DNA of 64,000 nucleotides from Pedobacter faecalis (lineage in GTDB: Bacteria > Bacteroidota > Bacteroidia > Sphingobacteriales > Sphingobacteriaceae), in the NCBI RefSeq assembly GCF_030182585.1, contig NZ_JARXOW010000001.1, positions 1,426,001 to 1,490,000 on the forward strand, read 5' to 3'. Positions within the stretch are counted from its first letter, which is position 1. The number at the start of each line of letters is the position of its first letter. Below the pieces are notes generated by a model that did not search any database, was not told the origin of the DNA, and was given only the letters and a program-made list of their open reading frames with translations. Below are positions 12,915 to 59,095 of the stretch, piece after piece. The translations under genes and the position numbers were made by a program.

Positions 12915-12937
12915 TATCTATTTTATGTTTATTTTGA

Positions 12938-40655: not shown

Positions 40656-40898
40656 ATGAAAACGAATGAAACAACACAGCAGGACGTGGACAATGTATTG
40701 CTCATGTCGGCACAGCAGAACATCGGTGAACGACCGGAGCGACCGGTTGACGACGCTGACGAGATGAGCGACTATGACTCATCGGAAGATACCGGAAACA
40801 CGGAGGAAGATCTGGACCTGGACTTAAGCGATGATCCGGATACTGACCTGTATGAAGATGATTTGGACGCATTAAACGGAGAAGACGATGAAGACTAA
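40656..40898 (+). CDS. Highly acidic small protein, 80 residues
   Basis: The start MKTNETTQQ at 40656 is used rather than an upstream ATG at 40629. The C-terminal half is almost entirely Asp, Glu and Ser (SSEDTGNTEEDLDLDLSDDP, then a DLYEDDLDALNGEDDED end), so the protein is strongly negative and probably disordered. Its stop overlaps the following DUF4142 lipoprotein by 11 bp. I know no family; metal or cation binding, or a DNA-mimic role, are guesses. Confidence 0.6.
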   Translation: MKTNETTQQDVDNVLLMSAQQNIGERPERPVDDADEMSDYDSSEDTGNTEEDLDLDLSDDPDTDLYEDDLDALNGEDDED

Positions 40899-41550
40899 CA
40901 TATTAAACCTGTCGGTCGCCTTGATTGCTGCCTGTGCAATCGGCGCTTGTTCCGGAGCCCGGGAAACGGCAGTTACCACAACAGGTACTGCACCTTTAAC
41001 CGGCGCTGAAGCTGTAACGGAAAATCTTAACACGCCGGATAAACCGACAGCCTTAACATCAGCAGGAAGCCAGATCACACTGGATACCCTTGCATTAAAC
41101 TTTCCGACAGACCAAAACGGACAGATAAGCGCTGCCGATTTTGTTGCACACGCGGCGCTTGCGGGAAAGAAGGAAGTAGAGCTGGGTCGCATTGCCCAGC
41201 AAAAGGGACAAAGTGGCGAGGTTAGAAGTTTTGGTGCAATGATGGTGACAGATCATACCAAGGCGAACGCAGAACTGCAGGCCCTGGCTACATCGAAAAA
41301 CATCAGCAAAATGCAGCCCGACTCTATTCCTGTAGATATGGACATCGCTATGGCATCCAAGCAGCTTAACGCACTAAGCGGCGAGCAGTTTGACCGCGTG
41401 TACCTGACGACCATGCTGAATGATCATCGTAAGGCGATTGCCCTGCATGAGCTTGGCGCTAAATCATCAGATGCGCAGGTAAAGGCCTATGCGGAAAAAC
41501 ACTTGCCTTCGCTTCGCAACCATATGGCTGCGGTAGAGAAACTGCAGTAG
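40888..41550 (+). CDS. DUF4142 family lipoprotein
   Basis: This 220-residue lipoprotein has lipobox Cys21 (AIGACSGARE). A low-complexity linker (about 25-85) precedes the DUF4142 helical bundle (ISAADFVAHAALAGKKEVEL, GRIAQQKGQSGEVRSFGAMM, VTDHTKANAEL, LTTMLNDHRKAIALHE, SDAQVKAYAEKHLPSLRNHM). DUF4142 has a ferritin-like four-helix fold and conserved His residues (TDHTKAN, NDHRKA); its function is unknown, and it is linked to envelope stress in some bacteria. It faces a second DUF4142 gene across a shared terminator, so the pair arose by duplication. It starts within the acidic gene. Confidence 0.85.
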   Translation: MKTNILNLSVALIAACAIGACSGARETAVTTTGTAPLTGAEAVTENLNTPDKPTALTSAGSQITLDTLALNFPTDQNGQISAADFVAHAALAGKKEVELGRIAQQKGQSGEVRSFGAMMVTDHTKANAELQALATSKNISKMQPDSIPVDMDIAMASKQLNALSGEQFDRVYLTTMLNDHRKAIALHELGAKSSDAQVKAYAEKHLPSLRNHMAAVEKLQ

Positions 41551-41576
41551 TGAAAGCTTAGTAAAGCGCTAAAACA

Positions 41577-41613
41577 CTAAAAAGGCGCCTCCTTGCGGAA
41601 GGCGCCTTTTTAG
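41577..41613. terminator. Bidirectional terminator between convergent DUF4142 genes
   Basis: CTAAAAAGGCGCCT pairs with AGGCGCCTTTTTAG over 14 bp around a 9-nt loop. The T run follows the stem on both strands, so it can end transcription from both the plus gene (stop 41550) and the minus gene (stop 41631). Confidence 0.9.
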
Positions 41614-41630
41614 TTTAAGAACCTTTTATC

Positions 41631-42224
41631 TTATTTGATAGAACCTTTTACGGATTTAGCTGAATCAAGGTGCATCTTCAAAATAGGAAGGGTTTTAGAA
41701 GCGAAGGCTTTAATATCGGCGTCTTTGGATGTCTTCGACGCATCTTCAAATAAATTAACGTCATCTTTGTGGTCGTCGACCATCATGGCCATGTACTTCG
41801 TATCGAATTCTTTGCCTTTGAGAAATTTAATGTCATTGATATGATGCTGCATTTCTTCGGGCATGGTAGAGGGAAGACGGATGCCTTTAAGTTCTGCCAG
41901 GGTCGTCAGTTCCTGATTTGCCTTGCTGTGATCTTTGACCATCATGGCACCAAAGGCCTTCACACGTGGATTGTCTGACACTTCCTGGGCAACGGTACCC
42001 AGTTCGACTTCCATCTTTCCGCCAGCGGCTGCTTTAAGGGCAAAGGTAACCAGCGGGTTAGATGCCGTATCGGCCGCATTGTGAACGGTTGTGGCCGAAT
42101 CATAAGAGGAAAGGCTGTCGGTCCGCGTTTCTACGGCTACTGTATTTTTGTTGCTGTTGTTGGTACAGGCGTAGCATAAAGAGCCTATAGCCAGAACAAG
42201 TAGAGATTGATTTAATTTTTTCAT
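41631..42224 (-). CDS. DUF4142 family lipoprotein
   Basis: This 197-residue lipoprotein has Cys20 (LCYACTNNSN). After a short linker it has the DUF4142 helical bundle: VTFALKAAAGGKMEVELGTV, NPRVKAFGAMMVKDHSKANQ, EFDTKYMAMMVDDHKDDVNL and DADIKAFASKTLPILKMHLD. The same His-containing motifs (KDHSKAN, DDHKDD) occur as in the neighbour at 40888. It has no acidic gene before it. The two are convergent paralogues, and both probably sit in the periplasmic face of the envelope. The function is unknown. Confidence 0.85.
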   Translation of the reverse strand: MKKLNQSLLVLAIGSLCYACTNNSNKNTVAVETRTDSLSSYDSATTVHNAADTASNPLVTFALKAAAGGKMEVELGTVAQEVSDNPRVKAFGAMMVKDHSKANQELTTLAELKGIRLPSTMPEEMQHHINDIKFLKGKEFDTKYMAMMVDDHKDDVNLFEDASKTSKDADIKAFASKTLPILKMHLDSAKSVKGSIK

Positions 42225-45982: not shown

Positions 45983-46912
45983 ATGAGAGCAGAAATTGAA
46001 GTTAACCCTACAATGCTTACTTGGGCAATTACCCGGGCTGGACATCGTGTGGATGAATTTCTGGATAACAACCCTACTGTCCACAAATGGTTAAATGGGG
46101 TCAAAAGGCCGACTGTAAAGCAACTTGAGGACTTCTCCAAAAGGGTTCATATTCCTTTCGGCTATCTATTTCTAAATGACCCGCCACAAGAAGCAATACC
46201 GTTTCCTTTTTTTAGAACTGGCAGCAAGCCTACGGCAAAAGTAAGCCTAAATGTATATGATACCATACTGATCATGCAGCGTAGACAGAATGGCTCACAG
46301 ACTATTTACTTGACACCGGAGCCAAACCCTTGAAGTTCGTCGCAAGCTTCAATGCCAATGCAGACGTACATTCCATTGTAGCCAATATTCGCAATACATT
46401 GAATTTACAGCCAGATTGGGCTAAGAATTTTAAGACTTTTGAAGACAGTTTAAATTTCCTTGTCGGAAAAATTGAGGAGGTAGGAGTAATAGTCAACTTT
46501 AATGGTGGACCCTATTGAGTTACTATGTGATCATGTTGCCGCCGAGTTCTTAGTCCCAGAAGATTATTTCTTGGAACTTTGGAAAAACAACCCAAATCCG
46601 GCTACCGTGGCCAGGTTTTTCAAGGTAAGCCAAATTGTGATAGCAAGAAGAGCACTCGATCTCGGCTTAATGTCTAAAAAAGACTTCTTTAACTTTTACC
46701 ATAATTACATTTCAGGCGTCAAATTAAAAAAAGAACAAGCAACAGGGGGCGGCGACTTCTATCTAACTGCCCGCAAAAGAATTAGTGTAAGTTTTGCTAA
46801 TTACGTAGATAAGGCCGTAAAACAAGAACGCTTACTTTATAGAGATGCTTATAAGATTACCGGGTTGAAGGGAGATACATATCAGAATTTTGTAAGTAAC
46901 TACCTCTACTAA
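45983..46912 (+). pseudogene. XRE/ImmA-IrrE antitoxin gene, broken by a frameshift and an internal deletion
   Basis: The intact relatives are about 370-390 residues: an XRE helix-turn-helix, a linker, an IrrE-type zinc peptidase with HExxH, and a C-terminal helical part. Here the HTH part is read to 46333 (MRAEIEVNPTMLTWAITRAG ... HIPFGYLFLNDPP). The linker then continues in the +1 frame from about 46291 (read as WLTDYLLDTGAKPLKFVASF), consistent with one lost base. At about 46500 the sequence jumps from IEEVGVIVNFNG to IELLCDHVAAEFLVPEDYF in the first frame. About 60-70 residues, including the HExxH site, are missing. What could still be made is a 116-residue HTH protein. Calling the shorter reading frames separate genes would be wrong. 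Confidence 0.82.
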
Positions 46913-46913
46913 C

Positions 46914-47408
46914 GTGTCGCCCTTATTTGTTTCAGATGCTAACTTTTTTATACAAGCCCATCGGATGCATTATCCTATTGATGTCGTTCCGGGCTTCTGG
47001 AGCAAGGTAATTGAGCTGGCTGAGAAAAAAATAATATGTTCTATCGATAAAGTTCAGGCAGAGTTGTACTCTGGCAACGACCAGTTAAGTAACTGGTGTA
47101 GGAGTAATCTGCCTAAAGATTTTTTTGAAGATACTACGAGTATTATTGGGCACTATGCAGCGGTATGTGCTTGGGCAAATGGCATGAGCAATCACTACAA
47201 TCTCTCGGCGTTAAATGAATTTTTGGATGCTGATGAAGCAGACGCCTGGTTGGTGGCATATGCGCAAGCTAAAAACTTAAAAATCGTTACACATGAAACT
47301 AGCGAACCTCAAAGAAAAAGCAAAATTAAAATCCCAGACGCCTGTCAGACTTCTGGCATGTGTGTAAATATCATTGAGATGTTTAGGCTTCTAAAGGAGC
47401 GATTCTAG
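46914..47408 (+). CDS. DUF4411 family PIN-like toxin
   Basis: This 164-residue protein starts with GTG 1 bp after the pseudogene's stop. It matches DUF4411 well: FVSDANFFIQAHRMHYPIDV, VPGFWSKVIELAEKKI, IDKVQAELYSGNDQLSNW, then LNEFLDADEADAWLVAYAQA and LKIVTHE. The PIN-like acidic residues are in place (Asp8, Glu50, Asp107 and Asp110), so a metal-dependent RNase active site is plausible. DUF4411 genes are usually paired with an upstream XRE/ImmA-IrrE gene as a type II toxin-antitoxin module. Here the toxin is intact and the partner is not. The start codon and its tight spacing suggest translational coupling to the upstream gene. Confidence 0.82.
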   Translation: MSPLFVSDANFFIQAHRMHYPIDVVPGFWSKVIELAEKKIICSIDKVQAELYSGNDQLSNWCRSNLPKDFFEDTTSIIGHYAAVCAWANGMSNHYNLSALNEFLDADEADAWLVAYAQAKNLKIVTHETSEPQRKSKIKIPDACQTSGMCVNIIEMFRLLKERF

Positions 47409-47474
47409 TATCAGTCTAACTCTGGACGCTTAACAAGGCGTGCACGTCTCAAAAAGCAGCATTTTGACATTTTA

Positions 47475-47506
47475 TTTGCATACTTTTTAAAAATCCTTAC
47501 TTTTGC
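47475..47506 (+). promoter_or_regulatory. Housekeeping promoter of tRNA-Ala
   Basis: TTTG (47475-47478) and TACTTTTGC (47498-47506) are separated by exactly 19 nt, a textbook Bacteroidota promoter. The tRNA starts about 36 bp after the -7 element. Confidence 0.75.
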
Positions 47507-47542
47507 CCCCACTCTGGTAACGTTTTGTTGCCGTAGCCACAC

Positions 47543-47616
<74 letters not shown>

Positions 47617-47623
47617 CTAGATC

Positions 47624-48575: not shown

Positions 48576-48621
48576 AACCAAAACAAAAAAGCCCCTTATA
48601 AGTGGCTTTTTTGTTTTGGTT
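48576..48621. terminator. Long bidirectional terminator-like hairpin
   Basis: AACCAAAACAAAAAAGCC and GGCTTTTTTGTTTTGGTT pair perfectly over 18 bp around a 10-nt loop that itself contains CTTATAAG. The right arm is T-rich on the plus strand and the left arm is T-rich on the minus strand. It isolates the following operon. The rest of the 406-bp gap, 48392-48797, shows nothing recognisable. Confidence 0.8.
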
Positions 48622-48797: not shown

Positions 48798-49745
48798 ATG
48801 ACGACAAAACCTTCTTTTTGGCAGCGCATAGGCATACAGGACTGGTTTCTGACCAATGACGGGACTACACCTGGCAATGCTAAGCCGCTTACGCCGAATA
48901 TGGTATACAAGTACATTATCGACCGATTTGAGCAGTCGATCTCCGAGCTTTCTTTCTCCGAACGGGTGATCTTTTATCATGAATTTATTATTTGTCTGAA
49001 CGTGGAGGATTACCGCGAATTTATGGCACACAAGAAAGGGATTCTCGGACTTGTAGCGCATGAAACGGTGAAGAAATTTTATGAGATTTTGAATAAGATG
49101 GTTGAAAGCGGGAAACGGGTGGAACCTGCGAGTAACAAGTGGGTGTTTCGCTTCGTGTCGCACCCCGACTACCGCAAGGGGGATATCGGTTTTATCGGCA
49201 AGCTGCTGCCCGACAGCAATCAGCAGGAGGAAAACCTGAGGGTAACGTTTATTCCGCGGCAAACGGGTATGGCACAGACGTTTGATATCAATAATGATAT
49301 CTTGAAGGACTTCATCTATTATAGCGAAGGGTATTATGAAATTCCGTATGTGGATACGCTAAAACATGACGAAAAAAAGGTGACCCAGGCGGTTAGCGCT
49401 GTTCTTGCAAGGTTTGAGACGACCATACCTGATAAGGCTTATACAGGCAAGAAGCTGGAATATATCATGAAAGCGGCCGAAATTACCGTGTCGGGCGATG
49501 AAGAGATCCGAGAGGAATCGAGCGTTTTCCGGATTCCTTCGGAATGGGTAAATACACCGCATCTCCGCATTCGTTATGCGGCCGATGAAGAGAAGTTCTA
49601 TCTGGCTTCTTTCGGGGAGAAAACGATAGTAAATGAGTTATTGGTCGAACGGAGCGATGCGGAGGAGCCTAAATGGCATGAGCTGCCGGTAAACTCAAGG
49701 ATTATATTGAACGGCATAATTGGTATGAATATATTTAAATCTTAG
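48798..49745 (+). CDS. FHA-like protein with FhaA-type N-terminal domain
   Basis: This 315-residue soluble protein is the first gene of the kinase-cell wall operon. The N-terminal half (about 35-130; YIIDRFEQSISELSFSERVI, then FIICLNVEDYREFM and a VFRFVSHPDYRKGDIG strand) has the order of the DUF3662 domain of actinobacterial FhaA: a helix, a strand with a DYxxF turn, a helix and a final strand. The C-terminus (about 245-315; VFRIPSEWVNTPHLRIRYAA, FYLASFGEKTIVNELLVE, LPVNSRIILNGIIGMNIF) looks like an FHA domain with a degenerate NTPH in place of SxxH. It would bind phosphothreonine proteins, though the degenerate motif makes that uncertain. The operon promoter was not identified. Confidence 0.6.
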   Translation: MTTKPSFWQRIGIQDWFLTNDGTTPGNAKPLTPNMVYKYIIDRFEQSISELSFSERVIFYHEFIICLNVEDYREFMAHKKGILGLVAHETVKKFYEILNKMVESGKRVEPASNKWVFRFVSHPDYRKGDIGFIGKLLPDSNQQEENLRVTFIPRQTGMAQTFDINNDILKDFIYYSEGYYEIPYVDTLKHDEKKVTQAVSAVLARFETTIPDKAYTGKKLEYIMKAAEITVSGDEEIREESSVFRIPSEWVNTPHLRIRYAADEEKFYLASFGEKTIVNELLVERSDAEEPKWHELPVNSRIILNGIIGMNIFKS

Positions 49746-49746
49746 T

Positions 49747-49845
49747 ATGTCGCAGATTTTAGCGCTTGCGCTTTTCTTCATTTGTGTGCTTTTGCTGGTT
49801 GCACACTTCAGGAACATTAAAAATTCGCCAAAAAAGAATGGATAA
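49747..49845 (+). CDS. 32-residue single-span membrane peptide
   Basis: The frame starts 1 bp after the FHA-like stop and ends 8 bp into the phosphatase gene, so it fills the gap exactly. It encodes a hydrophobic span (MSQILALALFFICVLLLVAH) and a basic tail (FRNIKNSPKKNG). The overlap with the next start (ATGGATAA) would give translational coupling. Its length, clean topology and exact fit to the gap make it a credible small protein. A role as a membrane partner of the phosphatase or of the SEDS synthase is inferred only. Confidence 0.6.
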   Translation: MSQILALALFFICVLLLVAHFRNIKNSPKKNG

Positions 49846-51310
49846 GAGTTACTTTGGACTAACAGACCCGGGCCGGGTTAGGGACAACAATGAGGATACT
49901 TTCATTGCGGAGAAAACCAAAAACAATGATGTTGTTATTGCCTGCGTGATCGACGGCGTGGGGGGCTATGCCGGGGGCGAAATCGCTTCGGCTATTGCCA
50001 GGAAATCAATCATACAATTTCTGAACCGTCCTAATGCGGATTATCCTGCGCTGATGCGGGATGCCATTATTGCCGCGGATGAGGATATACGCGCTGAAAA
50101 AATCAAGAACAACGGTCATGAACAAATGGCCTGTGTGCTTACCCTCGCGGTAGCTGATCTGGACAAAAACCAATTCTGGTATGCCCATGTTGGGGATACG
50201 CGGCTGTATTTGCTGCGCGACCGCTCGCTGGTCAAGATCTCCAAAGATCAGTCGTTCGTTGGTTTTATGGAGGACAGTGGGCGGCTGACCGAAGAGGAGG
50301 CCATGCGCCACCCGAAGCGCAATGAGATTAACAAGGCGCTGGGTTTCGGGATAAGTATTGCCGCCCAGCAGGATTATATTGAAACGGGTCATTCTCCCTT
50401 TTTGCCCGGTGATGTGTTGCTGGTGTGCAGTGACGGACTGAGTGATATGGTGAACCGGCAGCAGATGACGGACATTTTGAACAGTCCGGCTTCGCTGCAG
50501 CAAAAGGCGGAGGCCCTGGTTAAGGCAGCAAACCTGAACGGTGGTCTGGATAATATCACAGTAGTGCTTGTGAAGAATGATAAGCAGTCGGCCCAACACG
50601 AACCAGCCATGCCGGCGAGCAAAAACCGGAAGCAGCGTGTCGCCCCTACGCCGCTTGCGGATAAGGTCGAAAATTCTGACCCCCGGACGGCGCAGTGGGA
50701 AGGCGACAGGCTTTCTGCCACGCAGGGTGCCAGGCAAGAGACCGTACGCAGCAATACTGGCTGGATTACGCTGCTCTCTATTCTCTGCGTTGCTATGGCG
50801 GGCGTGATCGCTTTCTTGCTTTGGCAGAACAATCGCGCAGAACTTCGCAGTATGCAGCAGCGTAAACTAAGTGTCATAAAGCCACCGAGGAATGCACAGG
50901 AGAAAAAGTTGCAGGACACGATCAATAAGCTGAACCAGAATGTGCTGATCTTGACGGATTCTCTGTTTAAATCGCCGATACAGATCACAGAGCCCTTACA
51001 GATTGATCGCGATACACTGTACCTGATTGCAGAAAAGAATATTAGGTTGGTGGCAGATTCTACATTTAAAGGCATTCCGATCAATGTGAGGCCGGCCAAT
51101 AAGCACCTGCGTCTGGAGAACTTCACCTTTCAGAACTTTTCGACTGCGATTACCTCGGGCAGCAATGCGCTTGAATTCAGGAAGGTGCGGTTTATTAACA
51201 CGCCCAACGCTGTGCAAAGCGTATTCCGCTTTCCATCCGGCAGCTCCGTTAGCGGATCTGTTCCTGCCAGCACATTCACAACCGATTCCTTACCTGAAAA
51301 GATGAATTAA
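49838..51310 (+). CDS. PP2C Ser/Thr phosphatase with membrane span and outer beta domain (PstP-like)
   Basis: The start is the ATG at 49838 (MDKSYFGLTDPG); the longer frame from TTG 49766 lies inside the small peptide gene and is rejected. Residues 1-245 or so are a complete PP2C domain with metal-binding motifs GRVRDNNEDTF, CVIDGVGGYAGGEI, HVGDTRLYLLRD, CSDGLSDMV and LDNITVVLVK. After a linker there is one span (about 308-328). An extracytoplasmic region of about 160 residues has a coiled segment and beta-helix-like strands (IRLVADSTFKGIPINV, HLRLENFTFQNFSTAI, ALEFRKVRFINTPNAV). It should remove phosphate from kinase substrates at the membrane. Actinobacterial PstP also has a span, but its outer part is small, so this larger domain is unusual. 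Confidence 0.9.
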   Translation: MDKSYFGLTDPGRVRDNNEDTFIAEKTKNNDVVIACVIDGVGGYAGGEIASAIARKSIIQFLNRPNADYPALMRDAIIAADEDIRAEKIKNNGHEQMACVLTLAVADLDKNQFWYAHVGDTRLYLLRDRSLVKISKDQSFVGFMEDSGRLTEEEAMRHPKRNEINKALGFGISIAAQQDYIETGHSPFLPGDVLLVCSDGLSDMVNRQQMTDILNSPASLQQKAEALVKAANLNGGLDNITVVLVKNDKQSAQHEPAMPASKNRKQRVAPTPLADKVENSDPRTAQWEGDRLSATQGARQETVRSNTGWITLLSILCVAMAGVIAFLLWQNNRAELRSMQQRKLSVIKPPRNAQEKKLQDTINKLNQNVLILTDSLFKSPIQITEPLQIDRDTLYLIAEKNIRLVADSTFKGIPINVRPANKHLRLENFTFQNFSTAITSGSNALEFRKVRFINTPNAVQSVFRFPSGSSVSGSVPASTFTTDSLPEKMN

Positions 51311-51312
51311 CT

Positions 51313-54300
51313 ATGCGCTTTCTGTTTTTGATCATATCTATTGTTTTAGGCGCACTGTTTTTTACGTTATATAACCACCTTCAGGATGGTTTTGACGAGG
51401 TGCCCTCGCGTTTAAGGAACGGCACCATGATAAACCTGAACGACAAGCAACCGGGAAAACGAATGCGCCAGTTGCTCGAGAAGGGTTATTATTTTGAGGA
51501 CCCGCGCGATATGGCGCTGGTGGAGCGTGTGGTAGCAACGGCTAGTAAACCGGCCGGACTGGTACTCGACAATGTGGGTGAGATTAATAAAAGCCGGTAT
51601 TTCGTAGATGCCGATATGGCTTTTGCAGAGGGTGGTAAAAGTTTTAAGCGCCGGGTACTCGACTCGAGGGCGCTACTGGGCTATACGGGCGAAGATTCGC
51701 TGCGTTTTACGCAGGAGCGTACAAATCCGCCTAAGCTTCCTGCTGTTGCGGATATGAAGAAGGGGGCATACAGCATTACCGGGAAGATTGTGGACTCGCT
51801 GGACCGACCGGTGGCGGGTGTATTGGTTAAGCTGCACATGGTGTTGCCTCAGGACAGCACCTACGCTGAAGATGAAGTGGGTATAAAGACGCTGGGCCTG
51901 ACTGCTTATGTACGTACAGATGGGAATGGCAGCTATGCCTTTATGCACCTGCCTGATGGTAAGGCTTACCAGGTTTTGCCTCTGCAGCCGGGCTCGCAGT
52001 TTGGCCGTTCCCAGGGTGTGCAAGTGCTCGACAGTGATGTGTCTTTTGTTTTCCGGCAAAGTCCGCATAGCATACGCTTGTTTTCGGTAAGGGATTTTAA
52101 AATTCTGAAAAAAGAACGCTCACTCATTGTACGGACGGCGGAAGAGTTTAATCAGTGGTTCCTCATTATTGCCGGATCCTTCTTCTTTGGTTTCTTCCTG
52201 CTCAAGGCTATCCTGGCATGGAAGTTTCCCCAGGCAGATCAGTTGCTCCTTCCGGTAATTATGCTCATGACGGGCTTATCGTTCATCTCTCTTCTCAGTT
52301 TGCAGGACCCATTGCGCGACCGCTTTCTGGCCAGAGATACACTGACGTTTTTTGGTATAGGTATAGGCGGCATTATTGTCATGCTGATGGTTAAGTTCAG
52401 GCGACTTACGGTGGACTCTGGCTTTTACCGGATGTTTATTCTTGGCCGGAGCAGCGGGAAGGCCAGCGGATGGCAATGGGCCATTGCCTCGCTCGTTCTT
52501 CTTGGCTTAACAGTCGCTTTCGGCAGCGGTCCGGAAGGTAGCGGGGTTAAGGTAAACCTGTTTGGCGTTCAACCCAGCGAACTGGTAAAATATGGCATTA
52601 TTTTATTCCTTGCCGGCTTTTTCGCCAGCAATGAAAAGTTCATCACAGAATACAGCAGCTGGCACAAGCGCTGGTACTTCTTCTCTTTCGCGCTGGTGGC
52701 GATGGTGCTCGCCATTCTCCTGTATCTCACCCTGGGTGATTTGGGTCCGGCGATGGTGGTATGTTTTACATTTATTATTTTATTCTCCTTTTCAAGGGGC
52801 GATTTTGCGATGATGATGGTAGCCATCATCACCTATACTTTGTCGGTTTGGTTCCTGAACATCTGGCTGGGCAGTCTGCTTACAGCTGTGTTACTGACGC
52901 TTGCGATGATTTTCTATGAAAAGCGCACCAGTGAATCGGCCATCATGATTATTATGGTTATGGCTGGTTTCCTGCTTATCGATCAGATTCCGTATTTGGA
53001 TAAACTGATACCGGGGCCGGTGAACCGCCTGAATGAGAGAAAGTCGATCTGGCAGGATCCATGGAATAACGAGGTGTATGGGGGCGACCAGGTGGCGAAC
53101 GGTATTTGGGCTATGGCTGGCGGGGGCATCAGCGGACAGGGTGTTGGCGAGGGCTTCGCTAAGAATATACCTGAGGCGCATACGGACATGATCCTTCCGG
53201 CTATAGGTGAAGAGTTTGGTTGGGCAGGTGTGGTTAGTATTTTCATTTTGTTCCTTATTTTTCTGAACCGGGCTGTAGTGATTGGTCGGCAGACGGGTAC
53301 GCCCTTCCTCTTCTATTTATGTTCGGGCATTGGCATCAGTATGTTTGTACAGTTCCTCTTGATTGCAGGGGGTTCTACAGGAGCCCTGCCTTTGTCGGGC
53401 GTTGCCCTACCCTTTATCAGTTACGGCGGCTCCTCGCTGGTGGCGAACATGCTGGCAACGGGTGCGTTGCTTTCCATCTCTGTGATCAGGGGAACCCCGG
53501 TGCAGATGGAGTTTATTACCCGGCAGCAGGACCGCAACCTCGTGCCTGCTTTGTTGTCGGCCAGTATTGCGATACTGCTGCTGACTTTCACGGTTTCGCG
53601 TTATATTATTGATAATAAAAGATGGGTGGTGCAACCGGCTCTGGTGGCCGACCGCAGCGGGCTTCGCATGTTTAGCTACAATCCGCGCATCTCTATCTTA
53701 ATGAATAAATTGGAGGCGGGGCAGTTGTACGATCGTAAAGGGCGCATACTGGCTACAAGCAATCCTGATTTTGTGCGCAAGCAGCGTAAAACTTTGCAGG
53801 CAGCCGGCGTAAACTACAATCTGGACTCGGCAGAACATAAACGGGTAGACCGCTACTACCCTTTTGAAGAGCAGACGTTCTTCTGGACCGGCGACATGAA
53901 TACCGGTGTGTTTACCGGCAGTACGAACGGCTATTTTGCCGAGTACGAACACGCTGCGGAACTCCGGGGTTTCCGGACACCAACGGCTTCGTTTAGCACT
54001 AAGGCTAGCAAATACCGCGAAAACCGCTTCCTGCCTCGGGGTGTTAAAGAGATGACGGTGAGTAAGCGCGACTACGCGGCCCTGGCCCCGCTCCTGCTGG
54101 CGGGCATTAACAGTGCCGATGTGGATGCCTTCAAAAAACGTAACCGCGATGTGAAACTGACGATTGATGCCAGGTTGCAGGCCACGATACAGCAGTCGAT
54201 AGCCAAAGATGATTCGCTGCAGAACAACAGGGTATCGGTGGTGATTATGGAAGACAATACCGGCGATGTGCTTACCTCGGCGGTGTATCCGCTGCCACCG

Positions 54301-55332
54301 GTGAAGGACTGGGAGCTTCTGACCATGAGCGCTGCAGAACAGAACCGCTTGTCGGGATGGTATACCAACAGCGACCTTGGTTTTACTTACGCTACGCAGC
54401 CGGGGTCGACCGCCAAACTGGTGACCACCATGGCGGCGTTTAACAAGTTGGGTTTGGCGGCGGCCGAGCGAAAATTTCCGGTGGCTGCGCATGAAAGGAT
54501 CCGGACTAAAGGCTTGGAACCTGATGAGACTGGCTTGATCAGTCTTGAACGGGCCTTGGTAAAGTCGAACAACGTGTACTATATCAAACTGGCCAACGAG
54601 GAGCACCTGGAGGAGGATATGGCCCGCCTTTATCTGAAAACAGGAATGTTCCTGCATGGGGTTGGCGGTTATTATTATGAAAAGGGTGCGCAAAACGCCG
54701 AGCAGGAGAAGGAATGGTTTTCACTGTGGAGGGAGACGGAGTTTAACACCAAACCGCGTTATGATCCGGCAAGGATACGCCGGACCCGGGCGAAGGGGAT
54801 TTCGGGCATGGCATGGGGACAGGGTGAACTGATTGCTACCCCCGCGGCCGTGGCGCGCGTGGCGATGGGCGTTGCCAACAAGGGCACGCTGGTACCGAAT
54901 CGTTATGTGCTGAAGGTAAGTGATTCTGCAACTTCAGTGAAACCGGGTATAAAACTTGCTGAAAACCCTAGGTATGCTGAACTAATGAAAGATTATATGC
55001 TGAAGCAGAGTGCGGGTAAAGTGTGGACGCTGAAAATGAATGTTGCCGGAAAAACGGGTACACCGGAACGGATATGGAAGCAGGAGCAGATTAACGATGG
55101 CTGGTACGTTTTCTTTGTGCCAAAGAAAGATGGTCAGGGACATGTGGTGACCTGCATTCGTATTGAATCGACCAAAGGTTCCAGCAAAGCGGTGTTGCTT
55201 GCTGGCCAGCATGTGATCCCTGCCCTGCTTAAGCTGGGATATATCAAGGATTTTAAAGAGGAATTGGAAAAAGGTAAGAAAAAGCAAACAGCAAATAAGA
55301 TTAAAGCCGATGAGTATGTTCAATCTTTTTAA
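51313..55332 (+). CDS. SEDS (FtsW/RodA) glycosyltransferase fused to class B penicillin-binding protein
   Basis: This is a single 1339-residue frame. An N-terminal span (about 2-20) is followed by an outer region with a carboxypeptidase-like beta domain (about 150-245; GKIVDSLDRPVAGVLVKLHM, GNGSYAFMHLPDGKAY). About ten spans make up the SEDS domain (about 280-760), with PSELVKYGIILFLAGF, LGDLGPAMVV, the catalytic-loop HTDMILPAIGEEFGWAGV (Asp625) and GVALPFISYGGSS. The transpeptidase domain (about 770-1320) has the SxxK serine Ser1032 (PGSTAKL), SxN Ser1085 (KSNN) and KTG Lys1247 (AGKTGTPER). So both polymerising and cross-linking activities of peptidoglycan synthesis are on one chain. All key residues are present. 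The usual state is two separate genes. Confidence 0.93.
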   Translation: MRFLFLIISIVLGALFFTLYNHLQDGFDEVPSRLRNGTMINLNDKQPGKRMRQLLEKGYYFEDPRDMALVERVVATASKPAGLVLDNVGEINKSRYFVDADMAFAEGGKSFKRRVLDSRALLGYTGEDSLRFTQERTNPPKLPAVADMKKGAYSITGKIVDSLDRPVAGVLVKLHMVLPQDSTYAEDEVGIKTLGLTAYVRTDGNGSYAFMHLPDGKAYQVLPLQPGSQFGRSQGVQVLDSDVSFVFRQSPHSIRLFSVRDFKILKKERSLIVRTAEEFNQWFLIIAGSFFFGFFLLKAILAWKFPQADQLLLPVIMLMTGLSFISLLSLQDPLRDRFLARDTLTFFGIGIGGIIVMLMVKFRRLTVDSGFYRMFILGRSSGKASGWQWAIASLVLLGLTVAFGSGPEGSGVKVNLFGVQPSELVKYGIILFLAGFFASNEKFITEYSSWHKRWYFFSFALVAMVLAILLYLTLGDLGPAMVVCFTFIILFSFSRGDFAMMMVAIITYTLSVWFLNIWLGSLLTAVLLTLAMIFYEKRTSESAIMIIMVMAGFLLIDQIPYLDKLIPGPVNRLNERKSIWQDPWNNEVYGGDQVANGIWAMAGGGISGQGVGEGFAKNIPEAHTDMILPAIGEEFGWAGVVSIFILFLIFLNRAVVIGRQTGTPFLFYLCSGIGISMFVQFLLIAGGSTGALPLSGVALPFISYGGSSLVANMLATGALLSISVIRGTPVQMEFITRQQDRNLVPALLSASIAILLLTFTVSRYIIDNKRWVVQPALVADRSGLRMFSYNPRISILMNKLEAGQLYDRKGRILATSNPDFVRKQRKTLQAAGVNYNLDSAEHKRVDRYYPFEEQTFFWTGDMNTGVFTGSTNGYFAEYEHAAELRGFRTPTASFSTKASKYRENRFLPRGVKEMTVSKRDYAALAPLLLAGINSADVDAFKKRNRDVKLTIDARLQATIQQSIAKDDSLQNNRVSVVIMEDNTGDVLTSAVYPLPPVKDWELLTMSAAEQNRLSGWYTNSDLGFTYATQPGSTAKLVTTMAAFNKLGLAAAERKFPVAAHERIRTKGLEPDETGLISLERALVKSNNVYYIKLANEEHLEEDMARLYLKTGMFLHGVGGYYYEKGAQNAEQEKEWFSLWRETEFNTKPRYDPARIRRTRAKGISGMAWGQGELIATPAAVARVAMGVANKGTLVPNRYVLKVSDSATSVKPGIKLAENPRYAELMKDYMLKQSAGKVWTLKMNVAGKTGTPERIWKQEQINDGWYVFFVPKKDGQGHVVTCIRIESTKGSSKAVLLAGQHVIPALLKLGYIKDFKEELEKGKKKQTANKIKADEYVQSF

Positions 55333-56116
55333 TAAGAACACCCCGGATAAACCGAGGGATATAAAAGCGATCAGGGAAGCCATGCTGTTTTTCATAAAAC
55401 AGGAGATGCAGAAAATGGAGGGCGGCGAAGGACGGTCGATAAAAGGCTTGCAGCTGTGCATCGCCTGTTTGCCGGAAGAGCGTTACCTATACGACGCTGC
55501 GGTTTTCTCAGCGGAAGAGAATCGCTTTAAACAGGAGCTGCAGCGGCTGGCGGATGATTTTGCTATTGACCTGCCCGAACGTTGGACGCTGGATATTGCC
55601 TTTCTGGATGAATTGCCAGAAGGCGCTGTGAAAATGGATCAGTTGGATGTGGCACTCTGCATAAAAATGCCGGAGATCACCATTACACAAAAGTCGGACA
55701 CCGCTTTTCTGCGCGTTCTGAACGGCGAAGCGGAACAACAAGAATATACCATAAGTGCTGCCGACGGACGTATTAACATCGGCAGGGAACGGATGGCGCA
55801 GGATCAGGATGGCTTTGTGCGTGAAAACCACATTGCCTTTCCGGACGGCAGCAGCAACCAGGCCAATAAGTATGTGAGCCGACAGCACGCACATATCATC
55901 TGGAATGAGGAGAGCGCTGCCTTCATGCTGTTTGCCGACGACGGAGGCGTGCCGCCGAGGAACAAGGTAAAGGTAAAATCGCCCTCGGAGCATAACCCGG
56001 TGAAACTGACCTTTACTGAACTGGGACATGCGCTGCAGGAGGGTGATCAGATTATTCTGGGCGAGTCGGCCGTGCTGGAATTTAGTTATAGCTCACACCA
56101 ATCTGCAACAGTCTGA
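55310..56116 (+). CDS. FHA domain protein with FhaA-like N-terminal domain
   Basis: This 268-residue protein starts 23 bp before the SEDS-PBP gene ends (55310, or 55316 with the next ATG), so it is coupled. The N-terminal part (about 20-125; REAMLFFIKQEMQKMEGGEG, LQLCIACLPEERYLYDAAVF, ERWTLDIAFLDELPEGAV) resembles FhaA's DUF3662 domain. The C-terminal FHA domain (about 150-265) has the canonical binding loop GRERM...VSRQHAHIIW with the SxxH Ser and His, unlike the degenerate one at 48798. It would read phosphothreonines on the kinases or on the synthase. It ends overlapping the kinase start by 1 bp. Confidence 0.85.
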   Translation: MSMFNLFNKNTPDKPRDIKAIREAMLFFIKQEMQKMEGGEGRSIKGLQLCIACLPEERYLYDAAVFSAEENRFKQELQRLADDFAIDLPERWTLDIAFLDELPEGAVKMDQLDVALCIKMPEITITQKSDTAFLRVLNGEAEQQEYTISAADGRINIGRERMAQDQDGFVRENHIAFPDGSSNQANKYVSRQHAHIIWNEESAAFMLFADDGGVPPRNKVKVKSPSEHNPVKLTFTELGHALQEGDQIILGESAVLEFSYSSHQSATV

Positions 56117-57399
56117 TGGCGAAAGTATTTACGATAACGGAAGGGCTCGAGAACATGGGAGCGCTGCGTACAGGCGGCCAGGGTTCTGTGTATAAAGGTA
56201 AACGAACGGGTGCCATTATTACCGCCGTAAAATTGTTGCCTACGCCCATCCATTCTGAGGATCACGAGGACAAACATTTCCGGGATTTCAAGAATGAGGT
56301 GGAAAAGCTTAAGAAGGTTAACGAAAACCCAAGTCCGAATGTCGTGAAAATCCTGAGCTCGGGCCTCACCGAGAGCGGTGCCCTCCCTTTTATAGAGATG
56401 GAGTATATCGAGGGCCCCGAGTTGGAGGAATTACTTAAACCGCCGCATCAGCCGGTGTTCAGCATCAGGGAAAGCTTGAAGCTTGCCCAGCAGTTGGCCG
56501 CTGCGCTGGCGCATTGTCACCGTGTGGGCGTGAAGCACGGTGATATAAAGAGCAATAACGTGAAGTTTAACGCGAGCACAGGCAACTATGTACTGCTGGA
56601 TTTTGGTCTGGCCGTGATGTCGGACGAGCAGCGCAGAACGAGTTTGCGGAACGCTGGGGCCGTGGAGTTTATGGCTCCTGAACAGCATGAAGGCGAAATG
56701 CTCTTTCAAAGCGATGTTTACAGCTATGGTATTATCCTATATGAATTGCTGGCTGGTACTGTACCCTTCCCACTCATTAACAGTCACGATACCTCGCGCA
56801 ACATGGTGATGCTTGCGCATATAGAAAAAGAAATACCGGATCTGCTGGCTTTGAGAGAGGCGCGCTTGCCTGAAAGCTGGTCGGACGACAAGCGAAGTCA
56901 CGAAATGCGGGTTCCACCCTGGTTGCTGCAGGTCATTTACAAATGCCTGGAAAAGCGCCCGGAGAACCGGTTTGCCAACGGCACGGAACTTTATGAGACT
57001 ATCTGCGGCTATATGGAAGCTGCTGATCGGAATGAAGATGCGGCCATCATGCTTGACGCTTACAAGGAGCAGAATGAAAAGCTTTTGGCTACGGTGAAAC
57101 GGTATGAAAGGTTGAACAAAGCGAAGTGGTGGATAGCTGCGGCGGCCGTAATACTTCTCGTGTTAAGCTTTTTGGGAGTGGCGGCATTGTTCGACGATCG
57201 GGCTGACTTGCCCCAAAATGGAGTTCTGCCTGACACCAGCACCCAGGCACAGCAATTGGCTGATACTGCAGCCGCGCCTAAAAGCGATACAGTGCGGAAT
57301 ACGGTTGTACAGCCGCCACCTGTGAATAAAAAGCCTAAGGATCCGAAGAAAAATAGGCGGACAAAAGATGGATTAGTTGATGATGTACCTTATTTTTAG
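56116..57399 (+). CDS. Membrane Ser/Thr protein kinase (PknA/B-like)
   Basis: This 427-residue kinase has a glycine loop (GALRTGGQGSVYKG, 15-28), the ATP-binding Lys39 (AVKLL), the catalytic loop HGDIKSNN (Asp143) in place of HRD, DFG (Asp162 in LDFGLAVM) and the APE motif in MAPEQHEGE. The HGD loop marks it as a non-RD kinase, so activation-loop phosphorylation may not be needed. A single span (WWIAAAAVILLVLSFLGVAA, about 336-356) is followed by a short basic tail with no sensor domain (KKNRRTKDGLVDDVPYF). It starts 1 bp inside the FHA gene's stop codon and is closely paralogous to the next gene. Two kinases in tandem match the pknA-pknB order. Confidence 0.93.
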   Translation: MAKVFTITEGLENMGALRTGGQGSVYKGKRTGAIITAVKLLPTPIHSEDHEDKHFRDFKNEVEKLKKVNENPSPNVVKILSSGLTESGALPFIEMEYIEGPELEELLKPPHQPVFSIRESLKLAQQLAAALAHCHRVGVKHGDIKSNNVKFNASTGNYVLLDFGLAVMSDEQRRTSLRNAGAVEFMAPEQHEGEMLFQSDVYSYGIILYELLAGTVPFPLINSHDTSRNMVMLAHIEKEIPDLLALREARLPESWSDDKRSHEMRVPPWLLQVIYKCLEKRPENRFANGTELYETICGYMEAADRNEDAAIMLDAYKEQNEKLLATVKRYERLNKAKWWIAAAAVILLVLSFLGVAALFDDRADLPQNGVLPDTSTQAQQLADTAAAPKSDTVRNTVVQPPPVNKKPKDPKKNRRTKDGLVDDVPYF

Positions 57400-57416
57400 A
57401 AAATAATATTCAAACT

Positions 57417-58961
57417 ATGAGCAAAGTATTTACCATAGCAGAGGGGCTTGAAAACCTGGGTGCGCTGCGTACGGGCGGACAAGGTTCTGTGTATAAGGGT
57501 AAGCGGTTGGGCGAAATCATTACTGCGGTAAAGATATTGCCTACGCCGATCCTCTCGGAGGACATGTCGGACAGGAACTACCGCACGTTTAAAAATGAGG
57601 TGGAAAAGCTAAAGAAGGTAAATGAGGTTCCGAACCCGAACGTAGTTAAGATCATGAATTACGGGCTCACCGAAAGTGGCTCCTTCCCGTTCATAGAAAT
57701 GGACTATATAGAGGGTCCAGATCTTGGTGATCTACTGAAACCTCCTCATGAGCCGGTATTTACAATAAGGGAAACGATTAAGGTGGCCGAGCACCTAGCC
57801 AGCGCTTTAGCACATTGCCATAAAGTGGGTGTTAAACATGGCGATATCAAGAGCAATAACGTGAAGTTTAACACGGCAACAGGCAACTATATTTTATTTG
57901 ACTTTGGCTTGTCGATCATGTCGGACGAGCAGCGGCGGAGTAGTATACGCTATGCCGGTGCGGTTGAATTTATGGCGCCCGAACAGCATGATGGAGAAAT
58001 GTTCTTTCAGACGGATGTGTATAGTTATGGTGTAATTCTGTATGAACTGCTTGCAGGCTCAGTACCCTTCCCACAGATCAACAACAGTGAGACACACCGG
58101 AATGCGGTGATGCTTTCCCATATGGAAAAGCCAGTGCCCGACTTGCTAGACCTTCGGCGTCAGAACATCCCCGAGGGCTGGTCGGCCGAAACAAAAGCTG
58201 AGGAGATGAACGTGCCGGCCTGGCTTCTTAATCTGATCAGGAAGTGCCTGGAAAAACTTCCTGAAAAAAGGTATGCAGACGGCATAGCGCTTCAAAATGC
58301 GCTGATTCATCACAGAGAACTTGTCGCCCCACCTATGGAGACCCCTAGCCTGGCTTTACCCGAACCTGAGGAGGCCTCGCCAGACGCGGTAAGGGTTTCC
58401 AAGCCAATATTCTACGTGATGGTATTAGCGCTGGTTGCGCTGACGTTATTTGCGGCTTATTCTATCTATCTGAACGATATTAATCAGCGGCAGCTTGCAT
58501 ACTATACAGATAGCCTGAGCAATACGCCAGATACGACATCGCTTGTCGCGGAAACGATACCGGAAGACACGGTAAATACCATTAAGCCTATCATTACAGA
58601 TACGGCAGCGCTACAGGGCAGCACGGATGTAGACAGTCTTAAACAAATCTATGAGGCGCAAATGGGTGCCGAGCAGCCAACGGAGCAGCAGTCTGCAATT
58701 CCAAAAGAAAACACGTCAAAAAACAAAGACATTGTACTGGTTAGTGAAGGTGTTCGTTATCAGCTGCCCAAAGGCACCCTGTTCTTTTACGATGCCCCTC
58801 AAACGGATGCGTCTAAGCGCGGGGTGTTCGGTTTATGGACCATGAATAAGTTTAGCGTAGTAGATGAACAGAATGGTTTTATTTATGTAACCCACACGAA
58901 TAATGATGGCGAGGTTACAAAAGGCTGGCTTAATAAAGCCGACCTGAAAGAGGTTCCATAA
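57417..58961 (+). CDS. Membrane Ser/Thr protein kinase with SH3-like outer domain
   Basis: This 514-residue kinase has catalytic residues that line up with those of the preceding gene: Lys39, Asp143 (HGDIKSNN) and Asp162 (FDFGLSIM), with APE at MAPEQHDGE. It is also non-RD. After a span (YVMVLALVALTLFAAYSIYL, about 330-350) comes an acidic, Thr-rich linker and a C-terminal domain of about 75 residues (IVLVSEGVRYQLPKGTLFFY ... NKFSVVDEQNGFIYVTHTNN, ending GWLNKADLKEV) with an SH3b-like fold. SH3b domains bind peptides or wall fragments, so it could sense the cell wall as PASTA repeats do in PknB. It is the last gene before a terminator. Confidence 0.92.
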   Translation: MSKVFTIAEGLENLGALRTGGQGSVYKGKRLGEIITAVKILPTPILSEDMSDRNYRTFKNEVEKLKKVNEVPNPNVVKIMNYGLTESGSFPFIEMDYIEGPDLGDLLKPPHEPVFTIRETIKVAEHLASALAHCHKVGVKHGDIKSNNVKFNTATGNYILFDFGLSIMSDEQRRSSIRYAGAVEFMAPEQHDGEMFFQTDVYSYGVILYELLAGSVPFPQINNSETHRNAVMLSHMEKPVPDLLDLRRQNIPEGWSAETKAEEMNVPAWLLNLIRKCLEKLPEKRYADGIALQNALIHHRELVAPPMETPSLALPEPEEASPDAVRVSKPIFYVMVLALVALTLFAAYSIYLNDINQRQLAYYTDSLSNTPDTTSLVAETIPEDTVNTIKPIITDTAALQGSTDVDSLKQIYEAQMGAEQPTEQQSAIPKENTSKNKDIVLVSEGVRYQLPKGTLFFYDAPQTDASKRGVFGLWTMNKFSVVDEQNGFIYVTHTNNDGEVTKGWLNKADLKEVP

Positions 58962-59057: not shown

Positions 59058-59095
59058 AACAGGGATAGCTTTTAGCTTATCCCTGTTTCTCTTTT
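59058..59095 (+). terminator. Rho-independent terminator after the kinase operon
   Basis: AACAGGGATA pairs with TATCCCTGTT over 10 bp around a 10-nt loop and is followed by a T-rich tract. It lies 97 bp after the kinase stop. A 6-bp inverted repeat (GGTTGA...TCAACC) near 59026-59047 precedes it. Confidence 0.8.

Follow-up and report, generated by a model that had tools for sequence, protein, structure and literature searches.

Gene content and layout

We examined a 64,000-nucleotide stretch of the Pedobacter faecalis genome (NCBI RefSeq assembly GCF_030182585.1, contig NZ_JARXOW010000001.1, positions 1,426,001 to 1,490,000 of the forward strand), hereafter the window, and in it an operon at positions 48798-58961. 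The operon joins a predicted cell-wall synthase to Ser/Thr kinases, a phosphatase and forkhead-associated (FHA) proteins. Its synthase gene encodes a shape, elongation, division and sporulation (SEDS) domain and a class B penicillin-binding protein (PBP) in one frame. All seven genes lie on the plus strand, with successive spacings of +1, -8, +2, -23, -1 and +17 bp. The genes and the flanking hairpins were as follows.

48576-48621: terminator-like hairpin upstream of the operon; folding energy (dG) -25.4 kcal/mol, z -7.0, equalled by 0 of 200 shuffles
48798-49745, plus strand: FhaA-like protein, 315 aa; FhaA_N-like alpha/beta N-terminus (weakly supported) and divergent FHA C-terminus
49747-49845, plus strand: single-transmembrane peptide, 32 aa; one predicted transmembrane helix, counterparts in relatives
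49838-51310, plus strand: PstP-like PP2C phosphatase; Pfam PP2C_2, helix 310-328, C-terminal tail past the helix
51313-55332, plus strand: SEDS-class B PBP fusion, 1339 aa; Pfam FTSW_RODA_SPOVE and Transpeptidase in one frame
55310-56116, plus strand: second FHA protein, 268 aa; alpha/beta N-terminal domain and FHA, from AlphaFold model and alignment
56116-57399, plus strand: Hanks-type Ser/Thr kinase A; Pkinase E 5.6e-36, one transmembrane helix 340-358
57417-58961, plus strand: Hanks-type Ser/Thr kinase B; Pkinase E 3.3e-35, helix 334-352, longer C-terminal tail
59058-59087, plus strand: intrinsic-terminator-like hairpin closing the operon; dG -16.6 kcal/mol, z -5.5, last stop codon 96 bp before it

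An earlier reading of the sequence alone had described a tightly spaced plus-strand series of seven genes closed by a terminator. All seven were recovered with Pfam, AlphaFold and hydropathy, and the closing hairpin was found at the expected end. The upstream hairpin, the stronger of the two, would separate the operon from the preceding genes. A chance gathering of these genes is unlikely, because the whole genome yielded just three Pkinase matches at E 0.001 and two of them lie inside the operon.

The fused synthase

Pfam placed FTSW_RODA_SPOVE (E 2.4e-46) and Transpeptidase (E 1.7e-19) in the single 1339-aa frame. Together with hydropathy, by whose simple form the helices of the phosphatase, kinases and fusion were all called, this outlined an N-terminal helix, an extra domain at about 20-278 between two helices and the SEDS domain at about 300-735, its helices running from about 280 to 725. 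A helix belonging to the PBP (743-761) comes next, then the transpeptidase at about 975-1283. The catalytic motifs of a SEDS-class B PBP synthase (the SEDS Asp; SxxK, SxN and K-T/S-G) were all intact: HTD625, S1032xxK, S1085xN and K1247TG were invariant in 14/14 aligned fusions. Among 59 Bacteroidia fusion frames, HTD, SxN and SxxK were present in every one (SxxK once as PGSSAK), with KTG in 52 and KSG in the remaining seven. The dimer domain PBP_dimer_2, present in the PbpA of Nonomuraea, was not detected by Pfam in the window protein (E 0.01). A CarboxypepD_reg match at 21.5 bits fell below its cut-off of 32.3 and is not claimed. One divergent relative (L047:7762-11916) carries PP2C, SEDS and transpeptidase in a single 1384-aa frame, a natural three-part chain.

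Conservation and distribution of the cassette

To examine linkage we used 64 Bacteroidia loci, the window included, of which 48 had a complete fusion with at least 6 kb upstream and at least 3.5 kb downstream. Genes were counted as linked at profile scores above 100 bits, with gaps below 1.5 kb and on one strand. An FhaA-like gene, PP2C, fusion, FHA gene and one to three kinases were contiguous on one strand in 47/48 loci, so that the genes are not scattered in relatives, a point on which the sequence-only reading had staked its case. Eight of the 48 (the window and L035-L041) supplied profile seed sequences, and the count without seeds was 39/40; the 48 loci are related to each other and not independent. 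Seven gene arrangements occurred among the 47 cassette loci, the order varying and the content staying constant. PP2C stood directly upstream of the fusion in 45 cases at a median spacing of 1 bp (L035-L107 and the window), and in 47/47 cassette loci, window included, the FhaA-like gene and PP2C were separated by a counterpart of the small peptide, 22-33 aa long with one helix. The other 16/64 loci, with short flanks or an incomplete fusion frame, showed no contradiction of linkage within their reach.

A phylum-wide draw of 296 genomes, judged by match and frame length, contained full-length fusions in 12, one of which had two copies. At E 1e-80 the fusion was found in 41/201 genomes of the family, with one match each, and in 1/119 Acidobacteriota genomes, the one in question. 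A motif-based scan of named genomes gave 401 confirmed matches. Among the best 80 were Pedobacter, Mucilaginibacter, Segetibacter, Spirosoma, Larkinella and Niabella, one Rhodothermales record and two Acidobacteria records, and also Actinomycetota and Bacillota, these mostly with neighbouring separate SEDS and PBP genes. Within the genus, the FhaA-like gene was present in 9/9 fusion carriers and 0/20 listed non-carriers, and a Pkinase match above 110 bits in 9/9 carriers versus 1/20 non-carriers. A Spirosoma oryzicola plasmid carries the complete cassette. The cassette is thus patchily distributed and behaves as a unit that is gained and lost together, and it may have been transferred between genomes. 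In sum, the operon is a real, conserved and co-inherited system.

Phylogenetic placement

We built a maximum likelihood tree of 81 SEDS domains over 365 columns with 20 representative fusions, leaving aside three short rows (L113, L118 and L124) and eight duplicates. Because the Gram-positive rows came from the motif-based scan, we also included, without such filtering, the other SEDS proteins found in 12 genomes. The tree was split with support of 100/99 between 42 other SEDS proteins and a set made up of the 20 fusions, 15 PP2C- or kinase-linked proteins and four unlinked ones. The genome's own RodA and FtsW fell among the 42, the Gram-positive-type rows beside the fusions were Actinomycetota and Bacillota, and the fusions formed one group (100/100). 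In approximately unbiased (AU) tests, with groups named after the first trees and so outside the test's terms, joining the fusions to Bacteroidota RodA was rejected (p 1.3e-15), as was joining them to Bacteroidota FtsW (p 0.0014), and joining them to the linked SEDS proteins was not rejected (p 0.404). By the split and the AU tests, the fusion SEDS domain belongs to the kinase-linked clade and not to RodA or FtsW. The unrooted PBP tree, which omits L041 and L099, separated 22 other class B PBPs from all remaining rows (100/97). An AU test on that tree was left unused, as it had joined FtsI and PBP2 rows, which are not one group.

FHA proteins, phosphatase and kinases

The FHA domain of the second FHA protein scored 18.4 bits in Pfam, below the cut-off of 20.7, and the first gene (48798-49745) matched neither FhaA_N nor FHA. 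At E 0.001 the FHA profile gave zero matches in the whole genome, so the FHA domains of the operon were themselves missed by this search. AlphaFold models support the FHA identity of both proteins. The second, with a mean predicted local distance difference test (pLDDT) score of 88.4, was matched by Foldseek to solved FHA domains, the FHA part alone being matched among the best 50 matches listed, and its alignment holds the GR and SRxH motifs. The first had a mean pLDDT of 76.8, with residues 221-310 at 88-93, and likewise matched solved FHA domains. These include M. tuberculosis FhaA-FHA at rank 13 (2lc1) and rank 45 (3oun), with eukaryotic FHA domains ranking higher. When the alignments of the two FHA proteins were searched against PDB sequences, they reached two FHA domains at E 1 and 1.6 and unrelated weak matches (best RadA, E 0.0026); these results were not used.

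More divergent loci bear on the first gene. Its positional homologue in L042 (genome G131, divergent, same phylum) exceeded the cut-off for FhaA_N (26.5 versus 25 bits) and for FHA; the homologues in L045 and L047 were over the FHA cut-off and under that of FhaA_N, at 19.9 and 18.4 bits. In profile comparisons with FhaA_N, the Bacteroidia proteins alone scored 22.8 versus a maximum of 21.5 in 60 shuffles, rising to 35.4 once divergent rows joined; three divergent rows alone scored 40.8 (maximum 20.9, 60 shuffles). In the Spirosoma copy of the first gene (L035:14432-15433) the FHA domain exceeds its Pfam cut-off, at 22.2 versus 20.7 bits, whereas that of the window appears degenerate. The N-terminus of the second FHA protein gave a weak collinear hhalign match to FhaA_N (probability 16, E 0.0016), and the predicted element order looks alike. 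In L045 the second FHA protein (12435-13805) is longer and bears a Swt1-like HEPN domain (90 bits); the N-terminus of its L102 counterpart resembles it by eye.

The phosphatase, for which we took the start at ATG 49838 and not the longer TTG frame, matched PP2C_2 (E 4.2e-15) and the NCBIfam Stp1/IreP model at 197 bits, under the cut-off of 230. Its metal motifs and single membrane helix place it in the PstP/Stp1 type. The motifs DGVGG, GDS/TR, SDGL and DN were present in 56/56 frames, with RxxNED in 47 and RxxNQD in the other nine. Kinase A carries AVK, HGDIK, DFG and APE, and kinase motifs are also present in kinase B. Across 88 kinase frames, DFG occurred in 88, APE in 86, HxD in 83 and the strict Lys pattern in 70, and a helix followed the kinase domain in 85; the motif misses were inspected in part, and kinases from other lineages may in some cases have diverged. 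Against NF033483, the PknB/Stk1 PASTA kinase model, the operon kinases scored 146.7 and 126.1 bits, with a cut-off of 450. A periplasmic SH3-like domain suggested by eye in kinase B gave no Pfam match.

Housekeeping wall genes and genomic surroundings

A search of the rest of the genome for separate housekeeping genes found RodA, FtsW, PBP2, FtsI and MreB. Genes for MreB, PBP2 and RodA lie together at C1:1581444-1586955, and those for FtsI, FtsW and an FtsA-like protein at C2:206673-217608. We assigned the names FtsW, RodA, PBP2 and FtsI from this gene context and from the trees, and FtsA from its position and a weak match to the MreB family. In the whole genome, PF00905 matched six times. The sequence-only reading had proposed a second wall synthase set apart from RodA and FtsW; the separation held, and the number requires correction, since the fusion operon is an accessory, third SEDS set of the cell.

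None of the 13 flanking genes scanned (10 upstream, three downstream, two of them lacking any Pfam match; two short adjoining frames lay outside the scan) matched a secretion family. The scan thus gave no support to the alternative, named by the sequence-only reading as one that would count against it, that the kinases and FHA proteins belong to an unrelated secretion system. Upstream, the window holds IrrE-like and DUF4411 genes (46502-47617), possibly a toxin-antitoxin pair, beside tRNA-Ala(GGC), and two DUF4142 genes on opposite strands (40888-42224).

Relation to described systems

Linkage of FHA, PP2C, SEDS, PBP and PASTA-kinase genes is described in Actinomycetota, a pstP-pknB link in Actinomycetota and Bacillota, and PstP as a transmembrane phosphatase (PMC6554272). 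In the window, FHA, PP2C, SEDS, class B PBP and Hanks kinase genes are linked in the manner of fhaA-pstP-rodA-pbpA-pknAB. Compared with the actinobacterial fhaA-fhaB-pstP-rodA-pbpA-pknA-pknB locus (comparator Nonomuraea L048), functions, near-same order, SEDS clade and an FhaA-type first gene are alike, and the operon PP2C is, like PstP, predicted to be transmembrane. In contrast to that locus, rodA and pbpA are here fused in one frame with an extra N-terminal domain, the second FHA gene follows the synthase, no PASTA repeats were found, a tiny peptide is conserved and the whole is accessory beside an MreB-type set. In Nonomuraea the growth locus from fhaA to pknB lies on NZ_LT559118.1 (11.85 Mb), which is listed as a plasmid but probably represents a chromosome.

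Four Bacillota clusters (L111, L112, L116 and L121) share the PP2C-SEDS-PBP-kinase order, an FhaA_N-type protein in the locus and the SEDS clade, but keep SEDS and PBP as separate genes. A Thermoleophilia locus (L117, Actinomycetota) is similar in architecture, with an FhaA_N-type protein, PP2C, RodA and PbpA in one 925-aa frame, and a kinase; unlike the window protein, it retains PBP_dimer_2. An AU test of one versus two origins for this fusion and that of Bacteroidia favoured neither (p 0.235). The RodA-PBP2 and FtsW-FtsI pairs also combine a SEDS polymerase with a class B PBP, but as two chains from other SEDS and PBP clades, encoded in this genome beside mreB or the FtsA-like gene. We found no description of a natural SEDS-PBP fusion, or of such a locus in Bacteroidota, in the open-licence literature as judged mainly by titles and the opening of abstracts; PMC6554272, PMC8262863 and PMC6686043 are on other subjects than a Bacteroidota SEDS-PBP fusion locus.

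Proposed function and alternative explanations

We consider it likely that the operon represents a Gram-negative, accessory offshoot of the fhaA-pstP-rodA-pbpA-pknAB system for wall synthesis, with rodA and pbpA fused and, as we propose, placed under phospho-control. The near-actinobacterial order with rodA and pbpA joined had been noted by the sequence-only reading, and the fused frame, SEDS clade and AU tests agree with it. The likeness looks like descent, beyond gene order, because of the SEDS split, the AU tests and the L042 protein with both FhaA_N and FHA. Observed gene content, catalytic motifs, linkage, the grouping of the SEDS domain with the Gram-positive kinase-linked set and the separate housekeeping sets underlie this reading; from there we infer enzyme activity, the direction of phospho-control and the targets of the cassette. 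The SEDS part of the fusion would polymerize lipid II and the transpeptidase part cross-link the new strand, within one polypeptide. Two membrane kinases, their tails probably periplasmic, would detect a signal from the wall and add phosphate to threonines of cytoplasmic proteins, a reaction that the membrane PP2C would reverse. By homology, the kinases and PP2C would set a phospho-threonine state read by both FHA proteins. These may bind the phospho-sites and switch, gate or recruit either the synthase or the supply of its lipid II, and the tiny membrane peptide probably serves as a subunit or a regulator. In mycobacteria, the targets of PknB include CwlM and MurJ, FhaA is bound by CwlM in its phosphorylated form, and a role in sensing uncrosslinked peptidoglycan has been proposed for the PASTA domain (PMC6180346). 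The cassette would most likely be used under envelope stress or in a special growth state, because most family members examined are without it.

Several observations weigh against this reading. In the SEDS tree (length 0.85) and the PBP tree alike, a long branch leads to the fusions. PASTA repeats were found in 0/10 cassette kinases (Pfam, E up to 1), so the signal or its sensor probably differs from that of PASTA systems. No Thr was invariant across the 14 fusions in hydropathy-predicted cytoplasmic stretches, and the fusion itself therefore need not be the phospho-target. One locus, L088 (titled Flavobacterium sp. SUN052), has the fusion without partners and an FHA gene 7.6 kb off. In L042 and L044 the FhaA-like gene, the fusion and the FHA gene are present, but neither a kinase nor a PP2C was found in about 8 kb of surrounding sequence; judged by position, L046 appears to be of this kind too. 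The genome of L042 also holds a second, divergent fusion (L043, G131:C121) with a 265-aa kinase-like frame nearby.

The long branch and the lack of PASTA in the scanned kinases, together with a gene order that differs across lineages and a PBP dimer domain undetected in the window protein, are also in line with another origin, in which a Bacteroidota duplicate of rodA or ftsW was joined to a PBP and acquired its signalling neighbours only later, the actinobacterial likeness being convergent. The AU rejections of both Bacteroidota groupings, with groups named post hoc, and the L042 homologue over the FhaA_N and FHA cut-offs make this origin improbable. A narrower form of our preferred explanation is a dedicated stress synthase, in which the kinases would activate the cassette once the housekeeping synthases are blocked, making it a backup and not a growth regulator. 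Single-match presence in 41/201 family genomes and the separate housekeeping sets fit it, as does a precedent, the Listeria lmo2689-2686 operon with an extra FtsW2/RodA3, reported to be induced by beta-lactams (PMC6686043). The linked kinases, however, suggest post-translational rather than only transcriptional control, and we regard the stress synthase as a real possibility that we stop short of favouring.

A link to conflict with phage, with kinases reacting to infection and the wall enzyme as effector, could explain the patchy distribution, the one plasmid copy, the PADLOC kinase models that match both kinases and the HEPN-bearing FHA protein of L045, a locus that groups with the Rhodothermales row L102 in the SEDS tree. 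The PADLOC matches, though, were to kinase models only, 4/6 proteins had no match (E 0.01) and no PD-T4-6/MADS partners were found; with SEDS and transpeptidase motifs intact and the SEDS part grouping with growth genes, we think such a module very unlikely. Threonine-phosphorylation modules with FHA proteins exist in type VI secretion, and the kinase, phosphatase and FHA genes might have belonged to a type VI-like system. That reading is barely credible given the flanking scan, a linked gene that is a wall synthase in 47/48 loci and the surroundings of the Spirosoma copy, near which no type VI gene is annotated, although csgEFG, genes for curli export, occur about 15 kb downstream.

What appears new here, on the comparison of sequences, is a Gram-negative version of the fhaA-pstP-rodA-pbpA-pknAB kind with a fused synthase. 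For biochemistry, the single chain offers polymerase and cross-linker ready-made at a 1:1 ratio, the L047 relative offers a phosphatase within the synthase chain, and Pedobacter, Mucilaginibacter and Spirosoma are named carriers in groups where many genomes are without the cassette. The effect of phosphorylation on a SEDS-PBP pair is therefore directly testable. The findings suggest that a Gram-negative group, too, uses the kinase/phosphatase switch linked to Gram-positive wall growth. More tentatively, a third, kinase-linked class of SEDS enzymes may reach into Gram-negatives. Made up of FHA, tiny subunit, PP2C, single-chain synthase, FHA and kinases, and going as far as a phosphatase-polymerase-cross-linker chain, it would be a self-contained growth module that can move between genomes and place wall synthesis under Ser/Thr phospho-control, either alongside the MreB elongasome or instead of it.

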